Source: Clostridia bacterium
Lineage (GTDB): Bacteria > Bacillota > Clostridia > Christensenellales > CAG-138
DNA length: 34,599 nt
Assembly: GCA_030533005.1 (NCBI GenBank)
Contig: JAUNJX010000023.1
Span: 1 to 34,599 of the forward strand
Direction of reading: 5' to 3'
Each line of letters begins with the position of its first letter. Position 1 is the first letter of the stretch. Below, in pieces: positions 25,743-34,452 of this stretch. The notes beneath the pieces are model-generated. The model ran no database searches, had not been told where the DNA came from, and was given only the letters and a program-made list of their open reading frames with translations. Made by a program: the position numbers and the translations under genes.

Positions 25743-26147
25743 TTATACGCCTCCCTTAATGGCGGTGGAAAGCTGTGAAAATTCGCTCGAAACCTTTTTC
25801 TGGAGCGTTTGGTAATAGATCACGTTGCTTGCCAGATCCGTCATTTCCTTTTCGATGTCCACATTGTTCCCGTCCATGCGCATGGTCGTGGCCTCATCCT
25901 CGGTCACGGTAATGCGCGGCGTCCTGTCCGCGCCTATATCCATATGCTTGTCCCGCGTGCGTTTGAGCGCAAATCCGTCCTCCGCCTCCAGCGCGGCCTT
26001 GTAATGCTCCTCAAACGCCACGGTCGACCGGTTAAAGCCCGGCGTGTCGTTGTTTGCGATGTTGTTCATGATGACTTCGTTGCGTTTCCACGCGGCATCC
26101 ATGCCTCTGGACAGCTTCTCTACCTCACCGAACATATCGAACGGCAT
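25743..26147 (-). CDS. flgB: Flagellar rod protein FlgB
   Basis: A 134-residue proximal rod protein with RNEVIMNNIANNDTPGFNRS at about 22-41. It is the first gene of the early flagellar operon. The start at 26147 is preceded by an extended GGAGGAGGTGG site; an in-frame ATG at 26165 lies upstream of that site and is unlikely to be used. The leader from the SigA promoter (26285-26314) is about 130 bases and carries a GGA-loop hairpin. Confidence 0.95.
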   Translation of the reverse strand: MPFDMFGEVEKLSRGMDAAWKRNEVIMNNIANNDTPGFNRSTVAFEEHYKAALEAEDGFALKRTRDKHMDIGADRTPRITVTEDEATTMRMDGNNVDIEKEMTDLASNVIYYQTLQKKVSSEFSQLSTAIKGGV

Positions 26148-26209
26148 AGGATCCACCTCCTCCAATCAGCATTCTGCATACCGTTGCTTTTTCCGGCTGC
26201 GGCGCATGC

Positions 26210-26559: not shown

Positions 26560-26579
26560 GCCGATATTTTTGGTATGAT
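26560..26579 (+). promoter_or_regulatory. Promoter elements of the cheW-CZB operon
   Basis: Two overlapping possibilities exist. GCCGATAT (26560-26567) is a near-perfect sigma-28 -10 box, but the -35 at the right distance (TGAT, 26541-26544) is poor. TGGTATGAT (26571-26579) is an extended SigA -10 without a good -35. Which one is used decides whether the operon belongs to the SigD regulon. Confidence 0.4.
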
Positions 26580-26581
26580 AT

Positions 26582-26670
26582 AGATGTCTATAGGTATATC
26601 TGTCGATCACCCGTAGATATTGCACATCTGTTTGGATAATTCGTTATGCAAGCCGTCCGCACGGGGCGGC
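26582..26670 (+). promoter_or_regulatory. Structured leader of the cheW-CZB operon
   Basis: Nested inverted repeats: AGATGT (26582-26587) with ACATCT (26624-26629) outside, and ATATCT (26596-26601) with AGATAT (26615-26620) inside. A second hairpin, GCCGTCC (26652-26658) and GGGCGGC (26664-26670), abuts the GGAAGGGA ribosome binding site at 26671. No known riboswitch class is recognised. It could be a protein operator as well as an RNA fold. Confidence 0.35.
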
Positions 26671-26690
26671 GGAAGGGATGACAGCTGACT

Positions 26691-27533
26691 ATGAAACGCA
26701 ATCTCATTTCGGGCGATACGGCGGATTTCCCCTCGCTCACCTTTCGCGTGGGCGGCCATTTTTGTTCGATCTCGGCACGGCATGTCTCCGGCATCATGCT
26801 CATGCCCGACGTCGTGACCCCTATCCCGCAGGTACCCGCCTACTGTCTTGGCATGGTGGATATACGGGGCTATGTGGTGCCTTTGGTCGATCTGCGCACC
26901 CTTTTCGGCCTGCCCACGCTGGACAGCCAATATACGGATTTTTGCGCCATGATCGATTCCTATAAGGCGGATCATGAAAAGTGGGTCAATACCCTGCGGG
27001 AATGCATCGTGACCAAAGCCCCCTTCCCCCTCTCCGCCGATGCGCACGGCTGCAGGCTGGGCAAATGGTTCGACACCTACGCGCCCGCCAATCAATCCGT
27101 TGCCAGCCAGCTTAAAAAGCTGGAGGAGCCGCACGAAAGATTCCATGAGAGCGCCGCGCTTTATGAAAAATATCTGGCCGATCCCAACGGCGACGTCACG
27201 CTTGCACGCGTCAAGACCTTCTTCGATCGTTCCGCTACCCTCTATAAGCCCGAAATACTCAAGATTTTGGAGGACACCAAGGAGTCCTTCCTGCGGGAAT
27301 ATCAGTCCATCCTCATCATACTGGAGCAGGACGGCGAAACGACGTTGAGCTTCATCGTGGATTCCGTGGACGCCGTAGAGACCATCACGCGCGTGCCGCA
27401 GGCGCAGGAAGGCGGCTTCTGGCAAAACAGCCAGTTCGTCATCGGCATCGGCCGGGGCGAACGCAATACCTCCAACATCCTGATGCTGGACGACGCCGCG
27501 CTGGCGGCGCTGGCAGAGCATATCACACTCTAA
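26691..27533 (+). CDS. CheW-type chemotaxis adaptor with inserted CZB zinc-binding domain
   Basis: A 280-residue protein. Residues about 13-85 are the first half of a CheW domain (LTFRVGGHFCSISA, then VPAYCLGMVDIRGYVVPLVDLRTLFG), and about 203-280 are the second half (LIILEQDGETTLSFIVDSVDAVETI, GIGRGERNTSNILMLD). Between them, about 90-200, lies a helical CZB (chemoreceptor zinc-binding) domain with its 3-His/1-Cys set: H95 in DHEKW, C121 in GCRLGKW, and H148/H152 in PHERFH. CheW couples receptors to the CheA kinase; CZB domains in other proteins bind zinc and sense zinc or oxidants. It is the first gene of a four-gene plus-strand operon that encodes a receptor but no CheA. Confidence 0.9.
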   Translation: MKRNLISGDTADFPSLTFRVGGHFCSISARHVSGIMLMPDVVTPIPQVPAYCLGMVDIRGYVVPLVDLRTLFGLPTLDSQYTDFCAMIDSYKADHEKWVNTLRECIVTKAPFPLSADAHGCRLGKWFDTYAPANQSVASQLKKLEEPHERFHESAALYEKYLADPNGDVTLARVKTFFDRSATLYKPEILKILEDTKESFLREYQSILIILEQDGETTLSFIVDSVDAVETITRVPQAQEGGFWQNSQFVIGIGRGERNTSNILMLDDAALAALAEHITL

Positions 27534-27550
27534 AGCCGAAAGGTACACGC

Positions 27551-29776
27551 ATGGCCAAGAAATATTACGCCAAGAACAAGCGCAAAGCGCCGCCCGCTCC
27601 CCCGCCGGCTGATCTGGTTTTCGCGCTGGACATCGGCACCCGCTCCGTCGTGGGCATTCTGGCACGCCAGGAGGAGGATGCTTTTCACATCCTCGACTAC
27701 GAGCAGATGGAGCATCCCAGCCGCGCCATGACGGACGGGCAGGTAGAGGACATCAAGGCGGTGGGCGCGCTCATAGGCAAGGTCAAGCACCGTTTGGAGG
27801 AACGCAATCGCGTTACGCTAAGCAACGTGGCTGTCGCCGCAGCCGGCCGCGCGCTCAAAACCGTGCGCACGCGTCTGGATCGCGCCGTGCCGGACGAAAG
27901 CGCCATCGACGCGGATTTCGTGCTGGGCATGGAAAGCGAAGCCATTGAGCAGGCGCAGCAATCCATCCAAAACAGCGACGCGCCGCTTTCCATGCGCTTC
28001 TATTTCGTAGGCTACAGCATCGTTCAATACGCGATGGACGGCCACAGCGTCGCCTCCCTCGTCGGCCATACCTGCACCAACGCCGCCGTGGAGCTGATCG
28101 CGGCATTTTTGCCCTACAGCGTCATCGAAAGCCTTTACGCCGCCGTGGAGACCTGCGCGCTTACGGTCACAAGCCTTACGCTGGAGCCCATCGCGGCCAT
28201 GAACCTTCTCATCCCGCCCGAGCTTCGGCTTTTGAATTTGGCGCTGGTGGATATAGGCGCAGGCACCTCGGACGTGGCGGTCTGCCGCGACGGCGCGGTG
28301 TTCGCCTACGATATGGCGACGGTCGCGGGCGATGAGATCACCGAAGCCGTCATCCGCGCGTGCTTAGTCAACTTTGAGACGGCGGAGCGCATCAAGCGCG
28401 CGCTGTGCACGAGCGACGAGAGCGTTTCCTACGACGACGTGCTGGGTCTTGCGTGCACGCGCCCGCGCACGGAGATCCTGTCCGCCATAGACGATTCCAT
28501 CGATTCCCTTGCCAAGATCATTGCCGAGCGCATTCTCGCCTGCAACGGCGATGTGCCCGCCGCCGTGTTCCTCGTGGGCGGCGGCAGCCAGATACCCGGC
28601 CTTGGCAAAAAGCTTTCGGCGCATCTGGGCTTGGACGAATCCAAGATATCGGCGGGCGTTTCCCGCACCCTGCGCGGCGTCAAAACCGAATTTCCCGCCC
28701 TTTCCAGCCCCGAATACATCACCCCCATCGGCATCGGCATGACCTCCATGCACCAGCAATCTTTCCAATTTTGGGGCGTAACAGTGAATGGAAAGCCGTT
28801 AAAGCTACTTATTTCCCGGGAAATGCGCATGATCGACATGCTTCTTATGGCGGGCTTCCAAACCTCGCAGATACTGGGTCGCGCCGGGCGCAGCCTCACC
28901 TATACCCTCAACGGCGAGACCTTTACCCGCAAAGGGGGGCTGCCCGAGCATGCCCGCCTCACGGTCAACGAAGCGGAGGCAAACGTCGATACGCTTGTTT
29001 ATCCCGGCGACGCCATCACCTTTATCCCCGCCGTCCACGGCGAGGATGCGGCGGCAACGCTGCATGAGGTCGCGGGCGTACCGCTGCAAGCCGCGGGTCG
29101 CGTGACCCTGTGCGGCGGCGTCCACCGCATCGGCGTATGGGCGGACGTCAACGGCACGCCGCAGGATAGCGACATTCCCCTGCGGCAAGGCGATGCTGTG
29201 ACCATCCACGCCATTTACACCCTCAAGGAGCTTTGCGACGCGTGCCAGATGGATATGGAGGTTGCGGAGCTGATCGCCGACGGCGTGCCGCTCGCGCCCT
29301 CCACCGTGCTGCGCGACGGCATGGTGATCACGCTGCCCGCCCGGCAAAGCCCCGCCGCGCCCGTTTTACCCGAAGCCTCTGCTTTACCCGTGGCCGCGCC
29401 GGCGCAGGCGCCGGACATTCCCCCCGCGCCTGCCGCAGCCAAGCCGGAGCCTATAACCGAACCAATACCCGAACCCGCGCCCGAACCCGTTTTCATCGCG
29501 CCGCAGCCCGCGCCGGAGCCTGTCGGGCAGGAGCCCGAACCCGCTTCCATCGAGCCGCCACCCAAACCCGTTCTCGCGCTCACGCTCAACGGCGAAACGG
29601 TGGAGCTGCCGCTGGATGGCGCGCACTCCCACTATTATGTAATGAACCTGTTGGGTCGCTGCGGGCTGGATCTCAAAAAGCCGCAGGGCGCCATCCGCAT
29701 CAAGGTGAACGGCAGCGACGCGGCGTTTTCCCAAATGCTGCACCAAAATGACATCGTGGAGATCGGCTGGGCCTGA
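27551..29776 (+). CDS. FtsA-like actin-fold ATPase with C-terminal beta-grasp-like extension
   Basis: A 741-residue protein. Residues about 20-400 are an FtsA/PilM-type actin fold: phosphate-1 loop LDIGTRS (26-32), a 1C-like subdomain (about 88-185), phosphate-2 VDIGAGTSD (233-241), TVAGDEIT (257-264), and an adenosine motif FLVGGGSQIPG near 347-357. Residues about 415-600 contain repeated small beta-rich domains (VTVNGKPLKLLIS, then a DAITFIP-like edge), followed by a Pro/Glu-rich linker and a last domain with LNGETVELPLD ending GWA. It lacks the amphipathic membrane helix at the end of classical FtsA. Divergent FtsA-like proteins of this size are known in Clostridia without a firm role. It starts 17 bases after the cheW-CZB gene. 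Confidence 0.85.
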   Translation: MAKKYYAKNKRKAPPAPPPADLVFALDIGTRSVVGILARQEEDAFHILDYEQMEHPSRAMTDGQVEDIKAVGALIGKVKHRLEERNRVTLSNVAVAAAGRALKTVRTRLDRAVPDESAIDADFVLGMESEAIEQAQQSIQNSDAPLSMRFYFVGYSIVQYAMDGHSVASLVGHTCTNAAVELIAAFLPYSVIESLYAAVETCALTVTSLTLEPIAAMNLLIPPELRLLNLALVDIGAGTSDVAVCRDGAVFAYDMATVAGDEITEAVIRACLVNFETAERIKRALCTSDESVSYDDVLGLACTRPRTEILSAIDDSIDSLAKIIAERILACNGDVPAAVFLVGGGSQIPGLGKKLSAHLGLDESKISAGVSRTLRGVKTEFPALSSPEYITPIGIGMTSMHQQSFQFWGVTVNGKPLKLLISREMRMIDMLLMAGFQTSQILGRAGRSLTYTLNGETFTRKGGLPEHARLTVNEAEANVDTLVYPGDAITFIPAVHGEDAAATLHEVAGVPLQAAGRVTLCGGVHRIGVWADVNGTPQDSDIPLRQGDAVTIHAIYTLKELCDACQMDMEVAELIADGVPLAPSTVLRDGMVITLPARQSPAAPVLPEASALPVAAPAQAPDIPPAPAAAKPEPITEPIPEPAPEPVFIAPQPAPEPVGQEPEPASIEPPPKPVLALTLNGETVELPLDGAHSHYYVMNLLGRCGLDLKKPQGAIRIKVNGSDAAFSQMLHQNDIVEIGWA

Positions 29777-29797
29777 CCCCGCCAGTAAAGGAATCCC

Positions 29798-30514
29798 ATG
29801 CAAGGCAACGTACTGATCGCGGACGATGATCCCAAGGTTGTCGAAGAACTATCGCTGTATCTTGAAAACAGCGGTATGCGCGTGTTCCCCGCAGAAAACG
29901 GCCTCACGGCGCTTTCTACCCTCCAGCGAAACAGCATCCAGCTCATGCTGTTGGACGTCATGCTGCCGGACATGAGCGGGTATGAGCTGCTCAAGCGCAT
30001 ACGAAGCGAAAGCCCCGTCCCCATCATATTGCTTTCGGCCAAGGGGCAGGACAGCGACAGAATACTGGGGCTGGATCTGGGCGCTGACGATTACATCGTC
30101 AAGCCCTTTAACCCCTTGGAGGTAGCCGCCCGCGCGCGCGCACAGCTTCGCCGGTATCTAACGCTCGCGCCCGTCCCCAAGGAACAGGTGCTCACGGCCG
30201 GAGAGCTGCGGCTCGACCCCGCCTCGCTGACGCTGACGCGGCGCGGCGCGCTCATTCCCGTAACGCTCGCCGAATACAAGATACTCTTTCGGCTCATGCG
30301 CTCCCCCGGCGAGGTCTTTTCCAAGCGCCAGCTGTACGCGTGCATCAACCTGACCGCCGCGGAAAGCGGGCGCAACACCATGGAAAGCGACGAAAACACC
30401 GTGATGGTGCACATCTCCAAGATCAGGGAAAAGATCGAGGACGATCCGCGCGCCCCTCGCTACATCAAGACCGTTCGCAATCAAGGCTACCGCTTTGCAT
30501 ACCGCCCGCGCTAA
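29798..30514 (+). CDS. OmpR-family response regulator
   Basis: A 238-residue two-domain protein. The receiver domain (about 1-120) has the acidic pocket D9-D11, phosphoacceptor D53, S80 and K102 all intact. The C-terminal winged helix-turn-helix (about 135-236) ends with the usual IKTVRNQGYRFAYRP. It is a DNA-binding transcription factor. No histidine kinase gene lies within the window on either side, so its partner is unknown; it lies 21 bases after the FtsA-like gene and 67 before the receptor gene. Confidence 0.93.
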   Translation: MQGNVLIADDDPKVVEELSLYLENSGMRVFPAENGLTALSTLQRNSIQLMLLDVMLPDMSGYELLKRIRSESPVPIILLSAKGQDSDRILGLDLGADDYIVKPFNPLEVAARARAQLRRYLTLAPVPKEQVLTAGELRLDPASLTLTRRGALIPVTLAEYKILFRLMRSPGEVFSKRQLYACINLTAAESGRNTMESDENTVMVHISKIREKIEDDPRAPRYIKTVRNQGYRFAYRPR

Positions 30515-30522
30515 GCATACCC

Positions 30523-30540
30523 CGGCGTTGCAAAACGCCG
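30523..30540 (+). promoter_or_regulatory. Hairpin between the response regulator and receptor genes
   Basis: CGGCGTT (30523-30529), loop GCAA, AACGCCG (30534-30540): a perfect 7-bp stem with a stable loop, 8 bases after the response-regulator stop. No T-run follows, so it is not a classical terminator. It may adjust mRNA stability or expression of the downstream receptor (inference). Confidence 0.4.
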
Positions 30541-30581
30541 CAAGGCATAGATGAAAAATCGAAAGGATAAGGTCTTACTTT

Positions 30582-32009
30582 ATGAGAAATCTATCCATCC
30601 GCTGGAAGCTGGCGCTAGGCTACATCATCGCTTTTTTGATGTGCCTTGGCATGCTCACCGCCGCATTCGTATCCCTTTCCCGCATCAACGGCTACTTTGA
30701 CGAGGCGGTAAGCATCTCCACCGCGCGCAGCCCGTCGCTTTATCAGGAGCTTGCGCCGCTTTCCGAGGAGGCGCACGCTTCCTACGACAGAGCCACCAAG
30801 CTGGTCGTTATCGAGATCGTTGTACTGGTCGCTGCGGGCGTGCTGTTCGTTCGCATCACGCGTCTTGGGATCGTGCCGCCGCTCATGCAGATCGGCACGG
30901 GCATGAAAGCCCTTGCAAGCGGCGATCTAAGCGCCGAGGTCTCCTATACCAGCAAGGACGAGCTTGGCCAGACCTGCGACTGTATGCGTACGAGTCTCAA
31001 CTCGCTTCGTTCCTACATCGCCAAGATCGACGAGGCCATGCAGGAGCTTTCCGATGGTAATTTCTCCATGGAGCTCAAGAACGAATTCGTGGGCGACTTT
31101 GAAAACATCGGTCACAGCATCGACACGCTGAGCATCAAAATGTCCGACGTGATGCGGGAGATACAAAACGCCGCCGAGCAGGTTTCCTCCGGCGCTTCTC
31201 AGCTCGCCGTGGGCGCGCAGTCGCTCTCCGAGGGCACGACCGAGCAGGCCGCCTCCGTCGAGGAGCTTTCCGCCACCTTGGACGGCATATCGGATCAGGT
31301 CAAGGATACGGCCAAGTTTGCCATGAATTCCGTGATGCTCACCACGAAGGTCGGCGAATCCATCCACGATTGCAACGGGCAGATGAAGGAGCTTATGGCC
31401 GCCATCAAGGATATCGCCACCACCTCTGACGACATCGGCAAGATCGTCAAAACCATTGACGACATCGCGTTCCAAACCAACATACTGGCTCTGAACGCCG
31501 CCGTGGAGGCAGCGCGCGCGGGCGACGCGGGAAAGGGCTTTGCGGTGGTCGCGGACGAGGTGCGAAATCTCGCCCAAAAATCCTCCGAAGCCGCCCAAAG
31601 CACCGCCACCCTCATCGACAAGGCCGTTTCCTCCGCCAACAAGGGTAACGCCCTCGCTTCTATCACGGGCGACGCCTTTGAGGCCGCCGCCAAAAAGGTT
31701 TCCGCCGTCGTGGAGATCGTGACCAAGATCGCCAAGGCCGCCGAAGACCAGTCCACCTCCATCGAGCAGGTCACGCTCGGCGTCAGCCAGATATCCGATG
31801 TTGTGCAGACCAACTCGGCCACCTCCGAGGAAAGCGCGGCCGCAAGCGAAGAACTTCACGGGCAGGCGCAGCTTCTCAACGAGCTGATCGCCCGCTTCCG
31901 TCTGCGCGGGGAAGCAGGCGCCGCCTCGCACGCGGCCATACCCGTTTCCAGCGCCGATTTTGTGGATGGCATCGAATCCTTGCTCCCCGAAAGCGAAATC
32001 TCGATCTGA
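30582..32009 (+). CDS. Methyl-accepting chemotaxis protein with minimal extracytoplasmic domain
   Basis: A 475-residue chemoreceptor. TM1 is at about 9-32 and TM2 at about 73-93, leaving only about 40 residues outside, too few for a normal sensor domain. Residues about 93-145 are a HAMP domain and a second HAMP-like unit ([19 protein letters not shown]) follows at about 150-195. The signalling helix hairpin has the invariant tip [21 protein letters not shown] (about 294-314). There is no C-terminal CheR-binding pentapeptide. Input may come from the membrane, HAMP region or partner proteins such as the CheW-CZB adaptor in the same operon (inference). AAAGGATAAGG precedes the ATG. Confidence 0.95.
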
Positions 32010-32035
32010 TCGCCAATCACGCGGTTTTTTTGGAA

Positions 32036-32067
32036 GGGCACGGCAACAAAAGCCGCGCCCTTTCATT
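32036..32067 (+). terminator. Terminator of the cheW-CZB operon
   Basis: GGGCACGGC (32036-32044) and GCCGCGCCC (32052-32060) form a 9-position stem with one A-C mismatch, followed by TTTCATTTT. It lies 27 bases after the receptor stop codon. Confidence 0.75.
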
Positions 32068-32124
32068 TTCACCGCACGCATGAAATGCACCCGCATTGGA
32101 AACTCTATATGCGAGGTGATTTGA

Positions 32125-32274
32125 ATGGAAAACCGGAAAAGACCGACGGTGGCCGATATCTATGCCGCCCTTGACAACGACCTTGCATGGGACAATCTCG
32201 AACACGACCTTCCCGCGGCGGATCTTGCGGATCTGGAGCACAGTCTGCCCGGCGCCAACGGCGAGGATTTTTAG
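32125..32274 (+). CDS. Small acidic protein (49 residues), unknown
   Basis: A 49-codon ORF starting MENRKRPTVADIYAAL with a near-ideal ribosome binding site, GAGGTGAT, six to eight bases before the ATG. It is basic at the start and acidic after, and contains two similar segments, NLEHDLP and DLEHSLP, spaced 13 residues apart. There is no signal peptide or membrane segment. It follows the operon terminator and precedes the convergent secreted-protein gene. I do not recognise it. The strong start site and internal repeat support a real gene. Confidence 0.55.
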   Translation: MENRKRPTVADIYAALDNDLAWDNLEHDLPAADLADLEHSLPGANGEDF

Positions 32275-32328: not shown

Positions 32329-34452
32329 TTACCGCAGGCGGTATCGATAGAGGGTCTGCGTTCTTACCTCGCAGCTCTCCGTCGGGACGATCATGCTATC
32401 CCCGTAAGCCGACCAATCCGACCAACGGTAGAAATAATAAGTATGCAGCAAATCCCGCGTGCATGCGCGATACTGTGTTTTGTAGTAGGTGTTGGTCACA
32501 AAAAGCACCTCCGATTCCATGGGGACAAACGATGTAGCGTATCGCCGTCCCTGCTCGCCACTCGTGCCCGTGACCGTCTGGTAGCCGCCGCTTATGCCTG
32601 AGAAGCTGTATTGCTGACTCCATCCCACACATTCGTACCCACAGTTTTTCATTTGTGTTTCGTTGCGGAACCACCCCCATGCCAGATTCCCATTATTGTC
32701 GTATATGCGGGCAACAAACGTTTCGAGATCGACTGCGGCCTCTACCGAACGCGTTTCCACCTGAACAGAATCAGACGAAGCAATAGCGGCATCCTGCCAG
32801 CCACCCCAGTCCCCATATGCGCTCCATTCCTCTCCGTCATCATACTTTGTCCAGCCCTCCATGACGCTTTCCTGCGAGGACGCCGTTTCTTTTGTCCTGC
32901 TGCTATATTGCACCTTGGTTTGCGATTCGTAAAGCGGGTCGTTGAGCATGGACGCGTCTGTCGTCCATGTGCCCCAAGTGCCGCCCACGCTTATGGAAAG
33001 CTTCACGTTGCTTCCCTTTGCCGCGATATAATTGGGCGCGGGGTCTTGTGCAAATACGCAGCCCGCCTCTACATCGGAATTCGGCAGCTCTACGGTCGTA
33101 TAAGTAAATCCCTCCGCCGTCAGCGCTCCAATCGCGGCGCTTTCCGTCAATCCGATCAAAGGCGGAACCTTGGATGCTTCCATGGGCAGCGTGGCAACAG
33201 TGCCAACTATATGGCGGCACATGAGGATAATATCGATAAGATTCGTTTTCCCGTCAAGATTTACATCCGTTTTATCCAGTAATAAGCCGTCCGGAACGGA
33301 AAGATTGACATTCTTGCGGCAAAGCAGTACCGTGTCCCGTGTCGTAACCTGCTTATCGCCGTCCAGATCGCCATACACATGGGTGCCGTCATCCCGCCAA
33401 ATGGCGATCATGGTCGTGGAAGCGTTTCTCGTATACACGTCGCCCGCCGCGTAGATACCGTTTTCATCGTTGGCGTCCTGCCAGCCAAGAAAATCATATC
33501 CGCTTTTTGTCGGCGTCTGGCTGTGCAGTGTAAGCGGGCCGTCATGCAGCTTGGCCTGTGCCAAAAAACCACTGCCGGAGCCGCCCGAAAGATCATACTG
33601 CACGGTATAGCCCGATACTGCCTGCCAAACCGCATACAGCGTGGTGGCCGCGTTGGCGGTATAGCTTGCACCTGCTGCATAGTCTGGCAGCGTAGCTGTA
33701 GCGCTAGTCGCCCAGCCTTGGAACATATAGCCGGGGCGCGTGGGCTTCGTGGCGCTTAAGATCAGCGTCGCATCCTGTGTTTTGGTTTGCGCCGCAGGTG
33801 CTCCCGTGCCGCCATTGGCGTTGTAGGTGATGGGGTAGGTGGCGGGAGATGGGGCGGCAGGATAATTCCATGGCATATGTACATAAGTAATTTGCCCACA
33901 TGTGTTTGCATACTCCTGCCAGGTAAAATAAGTGATACTGGTATTGCAATATCCTCTACTCGCATTGTTCCAGTTTGAATGAAGAATCCATATACCCGTT
34001 GCATCAGACTTCAAATATACCATCGCATGTTGCAAGTTCGCATATCCTTCTAAACAAAATATCGTCGCTCCCGTCTTTATTCCAAGATTTGTGAGCGTAG
34101 CTTGCATAGATGCAGCAGTCGTCGTAGAGCCAAGCGTTCCATCACGATAATCCCAATCATAGTAGTACCCCACCTGATTGGCATGATTCTGATCAAACAC
34201 ACCAAATAGCTGAAGAAATGTCCATCTTGCAAAAGCCATACATTCATAATTCCCATTATATTCCTGCATCGCATATGAAGGATATGTATCCATAACTGTT
34301 TGTAACCGGGTAGCAACGACACTGTTGCTCGTAAAATCTGTCGCTTTATAACTTGACAAGTCATTCGTCGCAATCGCTCGTGTCCGTACTGGTACAAGGC
34401 CATTTAACATCATCAATACAAGTATCAACGCCACGCATTTCCTGATCTTCAT
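32329..34452 (-). CDS. Secreted modular protein: cysteine-hydrolase-like domain, InlB-type repeats, dockerin, PASTA
   Basis: A 707-residue exported protein. Signal peptide at about 1-27. Residues about 40-195 resemble a CHAP/NlpC-like cysteine hydrolase, with candidate catalytic C71 (YECMAFARW), H142 (LQHAMVYL) and N160 (LHSNWN). Two Listeria-Bacteroides (InlB B-type) repeats lie at about 206-276 and 283-352, each ending in an AVW/AIW motif. A dockerin-like pair of Ca-binding segments (GDLDGDKQVTTRD, DVNLDGKTNLID) lies at about 361-417. A PASTA domain (VPPLIGLTESAAIGAL) lies at about 429-490. The C-terminus has two Trp/Tyr-rich units with WSAYGD followed by VETRS or VRTQTLYRYR. Murein or peptide cleavage at the cell surface is plausible but unproven. 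The 5' third of the gene is visibly more AT-rich than the rest. The ATG follows GGGGGGAA. Confidence 0.85.
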   Translation of the reverse strand: MKIRKCVALILVLMMLNGLVPVRTRAIATNDLSSYKATDFTSNSVVATRLQTVMDTYPSYAMQEYNGNYECMAFARWTFLQLFGVFDQNHANQVGYYYDWDYRDGTLGSTTTAASMQATLTNLGIKTGATIFCLEGYANLQHAMVYLKSDATGIWILHSNWNNASRGYCNTSITYFTWQEYANTCGQITYVHMPWNYPAAPSPATYPITYNANGGTGAPAAQTKTQDATLILSATKPTRPGYMFQGWATSATATLPDYAAGASYTANAATTLYAVWQAVSGYTVQYDLSGGSGSGFLAQAKLHDGPLTLHSQTPTKSGYDFLGWQDANDENGIYAAGDVYTRNASTTMIAIWRDDGTHVYGDLDGDKQVTTRDTVLLCRKNVNLSVPDGLLLDKTDVNLDGKTNLIDIILMCRHIVGTVATLPMEASKVPPLIGLTESAAIGALTAEGFTYTTVELPNSDVEAGCVFAQDPAPNYIAAKGSNVKLSISVGGTWGTWTTDASMLNDPLYESQTKVQYSSRTKETASSQESVMEGWTKYDDGEEWSAYGDWGGWQDAAIASSDSVQVETRSVEAAVDLETFVARIYDNNGNLAWGWFRNETQMKNCGYECVGWSQQYSFSGISGGYQTVTGTSGEQGRRYATSFVPMESEVLFVTNTYYKTQYRACTRDLLHTYYFYRWSDWSAYGDSMIVPTESCEVRTQTLYRYRLR

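Follow-up and report, generated by a model that had tools for sequence, protein, structure and literature searches.

FtsA-like actin-fold ATPases of a motility-associated clade in Clostridia, and a candidate accessory chemosensory operon containing one of them

An FtsA-type actin-fold ATPase, encoded by the second gene of a probable four-gene chemosensory operon of a clostridial genome, belongs to a supported clade (99/99; SH-aLRT 99 in the tree with 24 clade rows) whose members recur next to chemotaxis or flagellar genes in six arrangements across five families. The novelty of the locus is this ATPase clade, and not the list of genes that was first noticed. With confidence only slightly above even, we read the four genes as an accessory chemosensory operon which feeds the CheA array of the cell and carries a motility-linked actin-fold scaffold. 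More tentatively, and a little short of even confidence, we propose that the clade of the window's protein (the E66 clade, after its residue 66) is an undescribed, dedicated component of clostridial chemotaxis and flagellar systems, a scaffold positioning or assembling arrays or flagella, which in this genus would be joined to a zinc/redox-gated coupling protein.

The placement of chemosensory arrays and flagella in Gram-positive bacteria is little understood; an actin-fold ATPase encoded in a che operon would add a new kind of player. The ATPase family is apparently uncharacterised; no description of it, or of its link with motility, was found in the open-access literature searched. It is widespread in Clostridia, including closed chromosomes, and the motility idea is therefore directly testable. 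If it is true, the family's default label “cell division protein FtsA”, a possibly misleading one, would be corrected; NCBI usually names such proteins “cell division FtsA domain-containing”.

The four-gene operon and its genomic context

The window, i.e., the whole stretch of DNA analysed (34,599 nucleotides), is an entire contig (C52). Four plus-strand open reading frames (Table 1), encoding in this order a CheW-CZB protein, the FtsA-like ATPase, an OmpR-type regulator and a chemoreceptor, are separated by gaps of 17, 21 and 67 bases; the ORFs and Pfam bore out the original prediction on genes, gaps and domain names. The flagellar genes of the contig lie on the minus strand, and include flgB, flgC, fliE, fliO, fliP, flhB, flhA, a flhF-type SRP GTPase and a flhG-type ParA ATPase, together with fapA, two FlgE/F/G-type rod genes and flgK.

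Table 1. Features of the operon and of the adjoining flagellar operon (positions in the window)
Feature	Position	Strand	Basis or remark
flgB, opening the divergent flagellar operon (flgB-flgC-fliE-fliO-fliP; flhB, flhA, flhF and flhG further on)	25743..26165	-	conserved in L034
Extended -10-like element TGgTATGAT	26571..26579	+	stretch conserved with the congener (alignment)
CheW-CZB, CheW domain split by a chemoreceptor zinc-binding domain	26691..27533	+	Pfam CheW 9.1e-19, CZB 2.3e-13
FtsA-type actin-fold ATPase, 741 aa	27551..29776	+	Pfam FtsA 2.5e-12, PilM_2, MreB
OmpR/PhoB-type response regulator, phospho-acceptor D53 intact	29798..30514	+	Pfam Response_reg plus Trans_reg_C
Transmembrane chemoreceptor (MCP), HAMP region, canonical signalling tip	30582..32009	+	Pfam HAMP plus MCPsignal 4.1e-40
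Intrinsic-terminator-like hairpin, then ATTTT	~32031..32065	+	MFE z -4.7 over 32003-32075

The sole other genome of the genus in the comparison, a public MAG (G248), carries the four genes in identical order on its contig L034, with 77-84% protein identity and also diverging from flgB. Such an identical set and order exceeds chance, and the genes are indeed neighbours in a related genome, a point on which the original prediction had staked itself. Between the two species, each of the four genes shows purifying selection (NG86 dN/dS ~0.11-0.17). A single transcript is likely, since gene order is kept, selection is purifying, the -10-like element is conserved and the strong hairpin with its ATTTT after the receptor gene fits a terminator, although the mechanical sigma-70 scan listed no plus-strand promoter for the operon. 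A sigma-28 (flagellar) promoter was rejected, the pattern search giving 0 matches for the operon. Past the terminator lie a 49-aa ORF without family match (32126-32272, plus strand; MENRKRPTVADIYAALDNDLAWDNLEHDLPAADLADLEHSLPGANGEDF) and then, convergent with the operon, the gene for a large, apparently secreted protein that has type I dockerin, PASTA and Listeria-Bacteroides repeat domains (32332-34452, minus strand).

CheA, CheY and the adaptation enzymes are absent from the four-gene operon, and no histidine kinase lies in it beside the OmpR-type regulator. The statement that CheA, CheB, CheR and CheY are missing holds for the operon only: beside fliS/fliD, contig C41 has genes for a receptor, CheA, CheY, a PilZ protein, another CheY, CheR and CheW, and no CheB was seen in this che stretch. 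With CheA, CheY, CheR and CheW elsewhere in the genome, and at least five chemoreceptors in total, the CheW-CZB protein and the receptor of the operon have a CheA array to join. The PilZ protein of this main che cluster (C41; L036, 8521-14677) is encoded between the two CheY genes.

The ATPase family and its motility-associated clade

A profile search found the ATPase family in 81 of the 341 genomes of the class. This overturned the outcome of the order search, in which no homologue turned up beyond the genus among the genomes sampled from the order of the window and the ATPase appeared confined to the genus. Family members are proteins of ~700 aa with the full architecture in common, at 29-38% identity over their full length. 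Residue 66 (window numbering) separates them: it is E, D or Q in 24/24 rows of the clade, and H in all 64 others. Position 257 does so nearly as well (T in 23/24 clade rows versus P, S or A outside), and the two positions are a possible functional switch.

Chemotaxis or flagellar genes occur within 3.5 kb of the ATPase gene in 12/24 clade members versus 1/64 members outside (Fisher 1.5e-7, in a row-wise test that ignores the relatedness of the rows). Counted per arrangement, by eye, the figures are 6/13 in the clade versus 1/26 outside (p 0.003), and if a chance of 5-10% per lineage is assumed, six arrangements out of thirteen have a probability of 2e-5 to 9e-4. The class sample was neutral; the sample from the order of G502 was picked for CheW-CZB, not for motility, and gave three motility arrangements nonetheless; the relatives of G402 were picked after a motility arrangement had been seen, and yielded a different one (a che operon).

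Besides the family of the window, four bacterial families hold relatives of the ATPase in chemotaxis or flagellar clusters. The ATPase lies inside a che/flagellar cluster in six genomes of family f95, five of which have cheR and cheB before it, with cheA and cheW ahead of these where the contig extends; the resulting order is cheA-cheW-cheR-cheB-[ATPase]-flgM-flgN-flgK-flgL, with fliW and csrA further downstream. Elsewhere, the ATPase gene is accompanied by a convergent receptor (MCP) gene and then flgB, flgC, fliE, fliF and fliG (G402); by a 669-residue protein without BLAST match and then flgB-flgC-fliE-fliF-fliG (G1089); by an upstream receptor (MCP) and a CheY-like receiver protein (G1079); or by an upstream fliD-fliS (G1039). 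The clade members at L129, L250, L251 and L252-L256 lack motility neighbours within the stretch that was read, and L250 and L251 belong to the very genus of G402.

At the first 62 loci, most family members have neighbours of nth/glgA, polA/coaE or SpoVB/RluA type, names obtained by reading sequences that were scanned in part only. With the family outside the clade in ordinary contexts such as nth/glgA and polA/coaE, motility may be a secondary role of the family. A GAF-GGDEF gene, mostly directly downstream, is present at 20 of the 62 (e.g., L107, L103, L099). As most of the family resides outside motility loci, amid polA, nth or GGDEF genes, the ATPase could have a general role in housekeeping, in the envelope or in relation to c-di-GMP, being found in motility loci because these are stable operons, and the four genes of the window would then only be co-expressed. 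We consider such hitch-hiking unlikely: a single clade, with a diagnostic residue, displays six different motility arrangements, and in f95 a dedicated che/flg cluster contains the ATPase gene, flanked by cheB and flgM.

The CheW-CZB protein, the regulator and the receptor

Both domains of the CheW-CZB protein score above their Pfam cut-offs, and the CZB domain is inserted within the CheW domain, not appended to it: a CheW half spans residues 16-79, CZB residues 95-156, and CheW-like strands follow after ~205, a layout with which the strand/helix pattern of a low-confidence model agrees. The 3His/1Cys zinc ligands (H95, C121, H148, H152) are present and invariant in 10 homologues; a TM scan found no transmembrane segment. 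CZB domains are sensors of zinc and of redox state (PMC8262984; preprint PMC13370339); the CheW-CZB proteins, a described subgroup, make up 1.4% of 10,140 CZB proteins and have their highest abundance in Clostridia (PMC8262984). The window's protein has in common with this subgroup the CheW plus CZB fusion, the occurrence in Clostridia and the 3His/1Cys zinc site. It differs in the residue after the zinc cysteine, R or H here but poorly conserved or Ala in the described subgroup (PMC8262984), and in its genetic setting, opening an operon that continues with ATPase, regulator and receptor, whereas CheW-CZB is a lone gene in eight other genomes.

Adjacency of CheW-CZB and the ATPase was seen in the two congeners and in no case outside the genus; the neighbourhood check proposed in the original prediction succeeded within the genus only, and the idea of a widespread gene pair was rejected. 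On present sampling the pairing is specific to this genus. Overall, the components are less unusual than the original prediction took them to be: CheW-CZB itself is a published subgroup (PMC8262984), CheA, CheY, CheR and CheW are present on C41, and the genome has a second protein with a better FtsA match. Co-occurrence in the same genome was not established either: G481 and G502 carry both genes, but only one of the two CheW-CZB genomes in the order of G502 has the ATPase. A phylum-wide profile search with CheW-CZB returned mostly ordinary CheW proteins and CZB receptors, and none of the matches listed from outside the class spans both domains.

The receptor has two transmembrane segments (~15-33 and ~74-92) with only ~40 residues between them. 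The regulator, in mid-operon with an intact D53 and no adjacent kinase, would suit a transcriptional stress operon, in which it would be the main output, the receptor, CheW-CZB and the ATPase forming a switch, kinase-free or with a borrowed kinase, that has nothing to do with swimming. This explanation appears improbable to us, given that the operon lies beside flgB in both species, that the ATPase is found in motility contexts elsewhere, and that the regulator is missing from the other ATPase arrangements.

Architecture of the ATPase and comparison with FtsA and PilM

The ATPase comprises a core (~20-400), a beta-grasp-like middle, a Pro-rich linker (~598-672) and a C-terminal beta-grasp-like domain (~675-740); ThiS/ubiquitin-like segments occur in its C-terminal half, and the TM scan found no transmembrane segment. 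It shares with FtsA an FtsA-type ATPase core with all nucleotide motifs: in 88 homologues, the core positions of the three ATP motifs (phosphate 1, phosphate 2 and adenosine) are invariant or nearly so. FtsA also provides its nearest solved structures by sequence (best PDB match 7q6f, 3.5e-18). PilM, the actin-like adaptor of the type IV pilus and hence likewise of a motility machine in the membrane, has the fold class in common but is a weaker match (1.9e-8), and no pilus genes occur among the identified neighbours of the ATPase. The protein is missed by both curated models, with 85.9-87.8 bits against the cut-off of 175.85 of the FtsA equivalog TIGR01174, and 62.5 bits against a PilM cut-off of 133. 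AlphaFold models built from two-sequence alignments (pLDDT 32 and 48) did not have the quality needed for searching by fold.

The differences from FtsA concern both sequence and setting. An FtsA-style C-terminal amphipathic membrane helix appears to be absent, the predicted tail being instead the Pro-rich linker with its beta-grasp-like domain, and the neighbours are motility rather than division genes. Furthermore, another FtsA-like protein of the genome (contig C67) matches the FtsA model better, with 156.8 bits versus 87.8; both fall below the curated FtsA cut-off, as likewise in all 41 searched genomes of the family. The original prediction had joined the chemosensory genes to an FtsA-type ATPase and to cell division: the former, a real evolutionary link, is supported by the recurrent chemotaxis and flagellar placement more strongly than could have been foreseen, whereas the latter, by which the FtsA-like protein would connect the arrays with FtsZ and with either the division site or the new pole, we regard as highly improbable in spite of FtsA being its nearest solved structure and of the inheritance of chemosensory arrays through the poles, in view of the better FtsA candidate on C67, the tail of the ATPase, and its neighbours, among the annotated part of which no FtsZ or other division gene was identified.

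Proposed mechanism of the accessory operon

In the accessory chemosensory operon that we favour, the receptor, almost devoid of an extracellular domain, would signal into the genomic CheA array, which CheW-CZB would join as a second coupling protein; the inserted CZB domain would render this coupling zinc- or redox-dependent, and the OmpR-type regulator may set expression. This part of the reading is based on what is known of the domains and on the gene content of the genome. The FtsA-like ATPase, whose motility link rests on recurrent gene context, would be a scaffold for the motility apparatus, cytosolic and under the control of ATP, recruiting or placing chemosensory arrays or flagellar parts, with the tethered beta-grasp-like tail as a putative binding arm. 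Such a role in placement or assembly is suggested by analogy with FtsA, which recruits the Z-ring, and with PilM, which recruits the pilus machine.

Other gene contexts of the family

Several further contexts were observed in the family. A GAF-GGDEF (diguanylate cyclase) gene often directly follows the FtsA-like gene in several families outside the motility clade, and a link of the whole ATPase family to c-di-GMP signalling is possible on these neighbourhoods. In family f245, a PilZ-domain gene (L245, 5613-6326, minus strand) is located directly upstream of the FtsA-like gene, pointing once more to c-di-GMP or flagellar control. Finally, nine f38 genomes outside the clade (L099, L100, L104, L108, L110, L115, L117, L119, L122) carry a stand-alone CheW gene with an adjoining argJ-like gene; this CheW gene is convergent with the FtsA-like/GGDEF pair at ~1.8-2.6 kb from the ATPase, a proximity that may be accidental.
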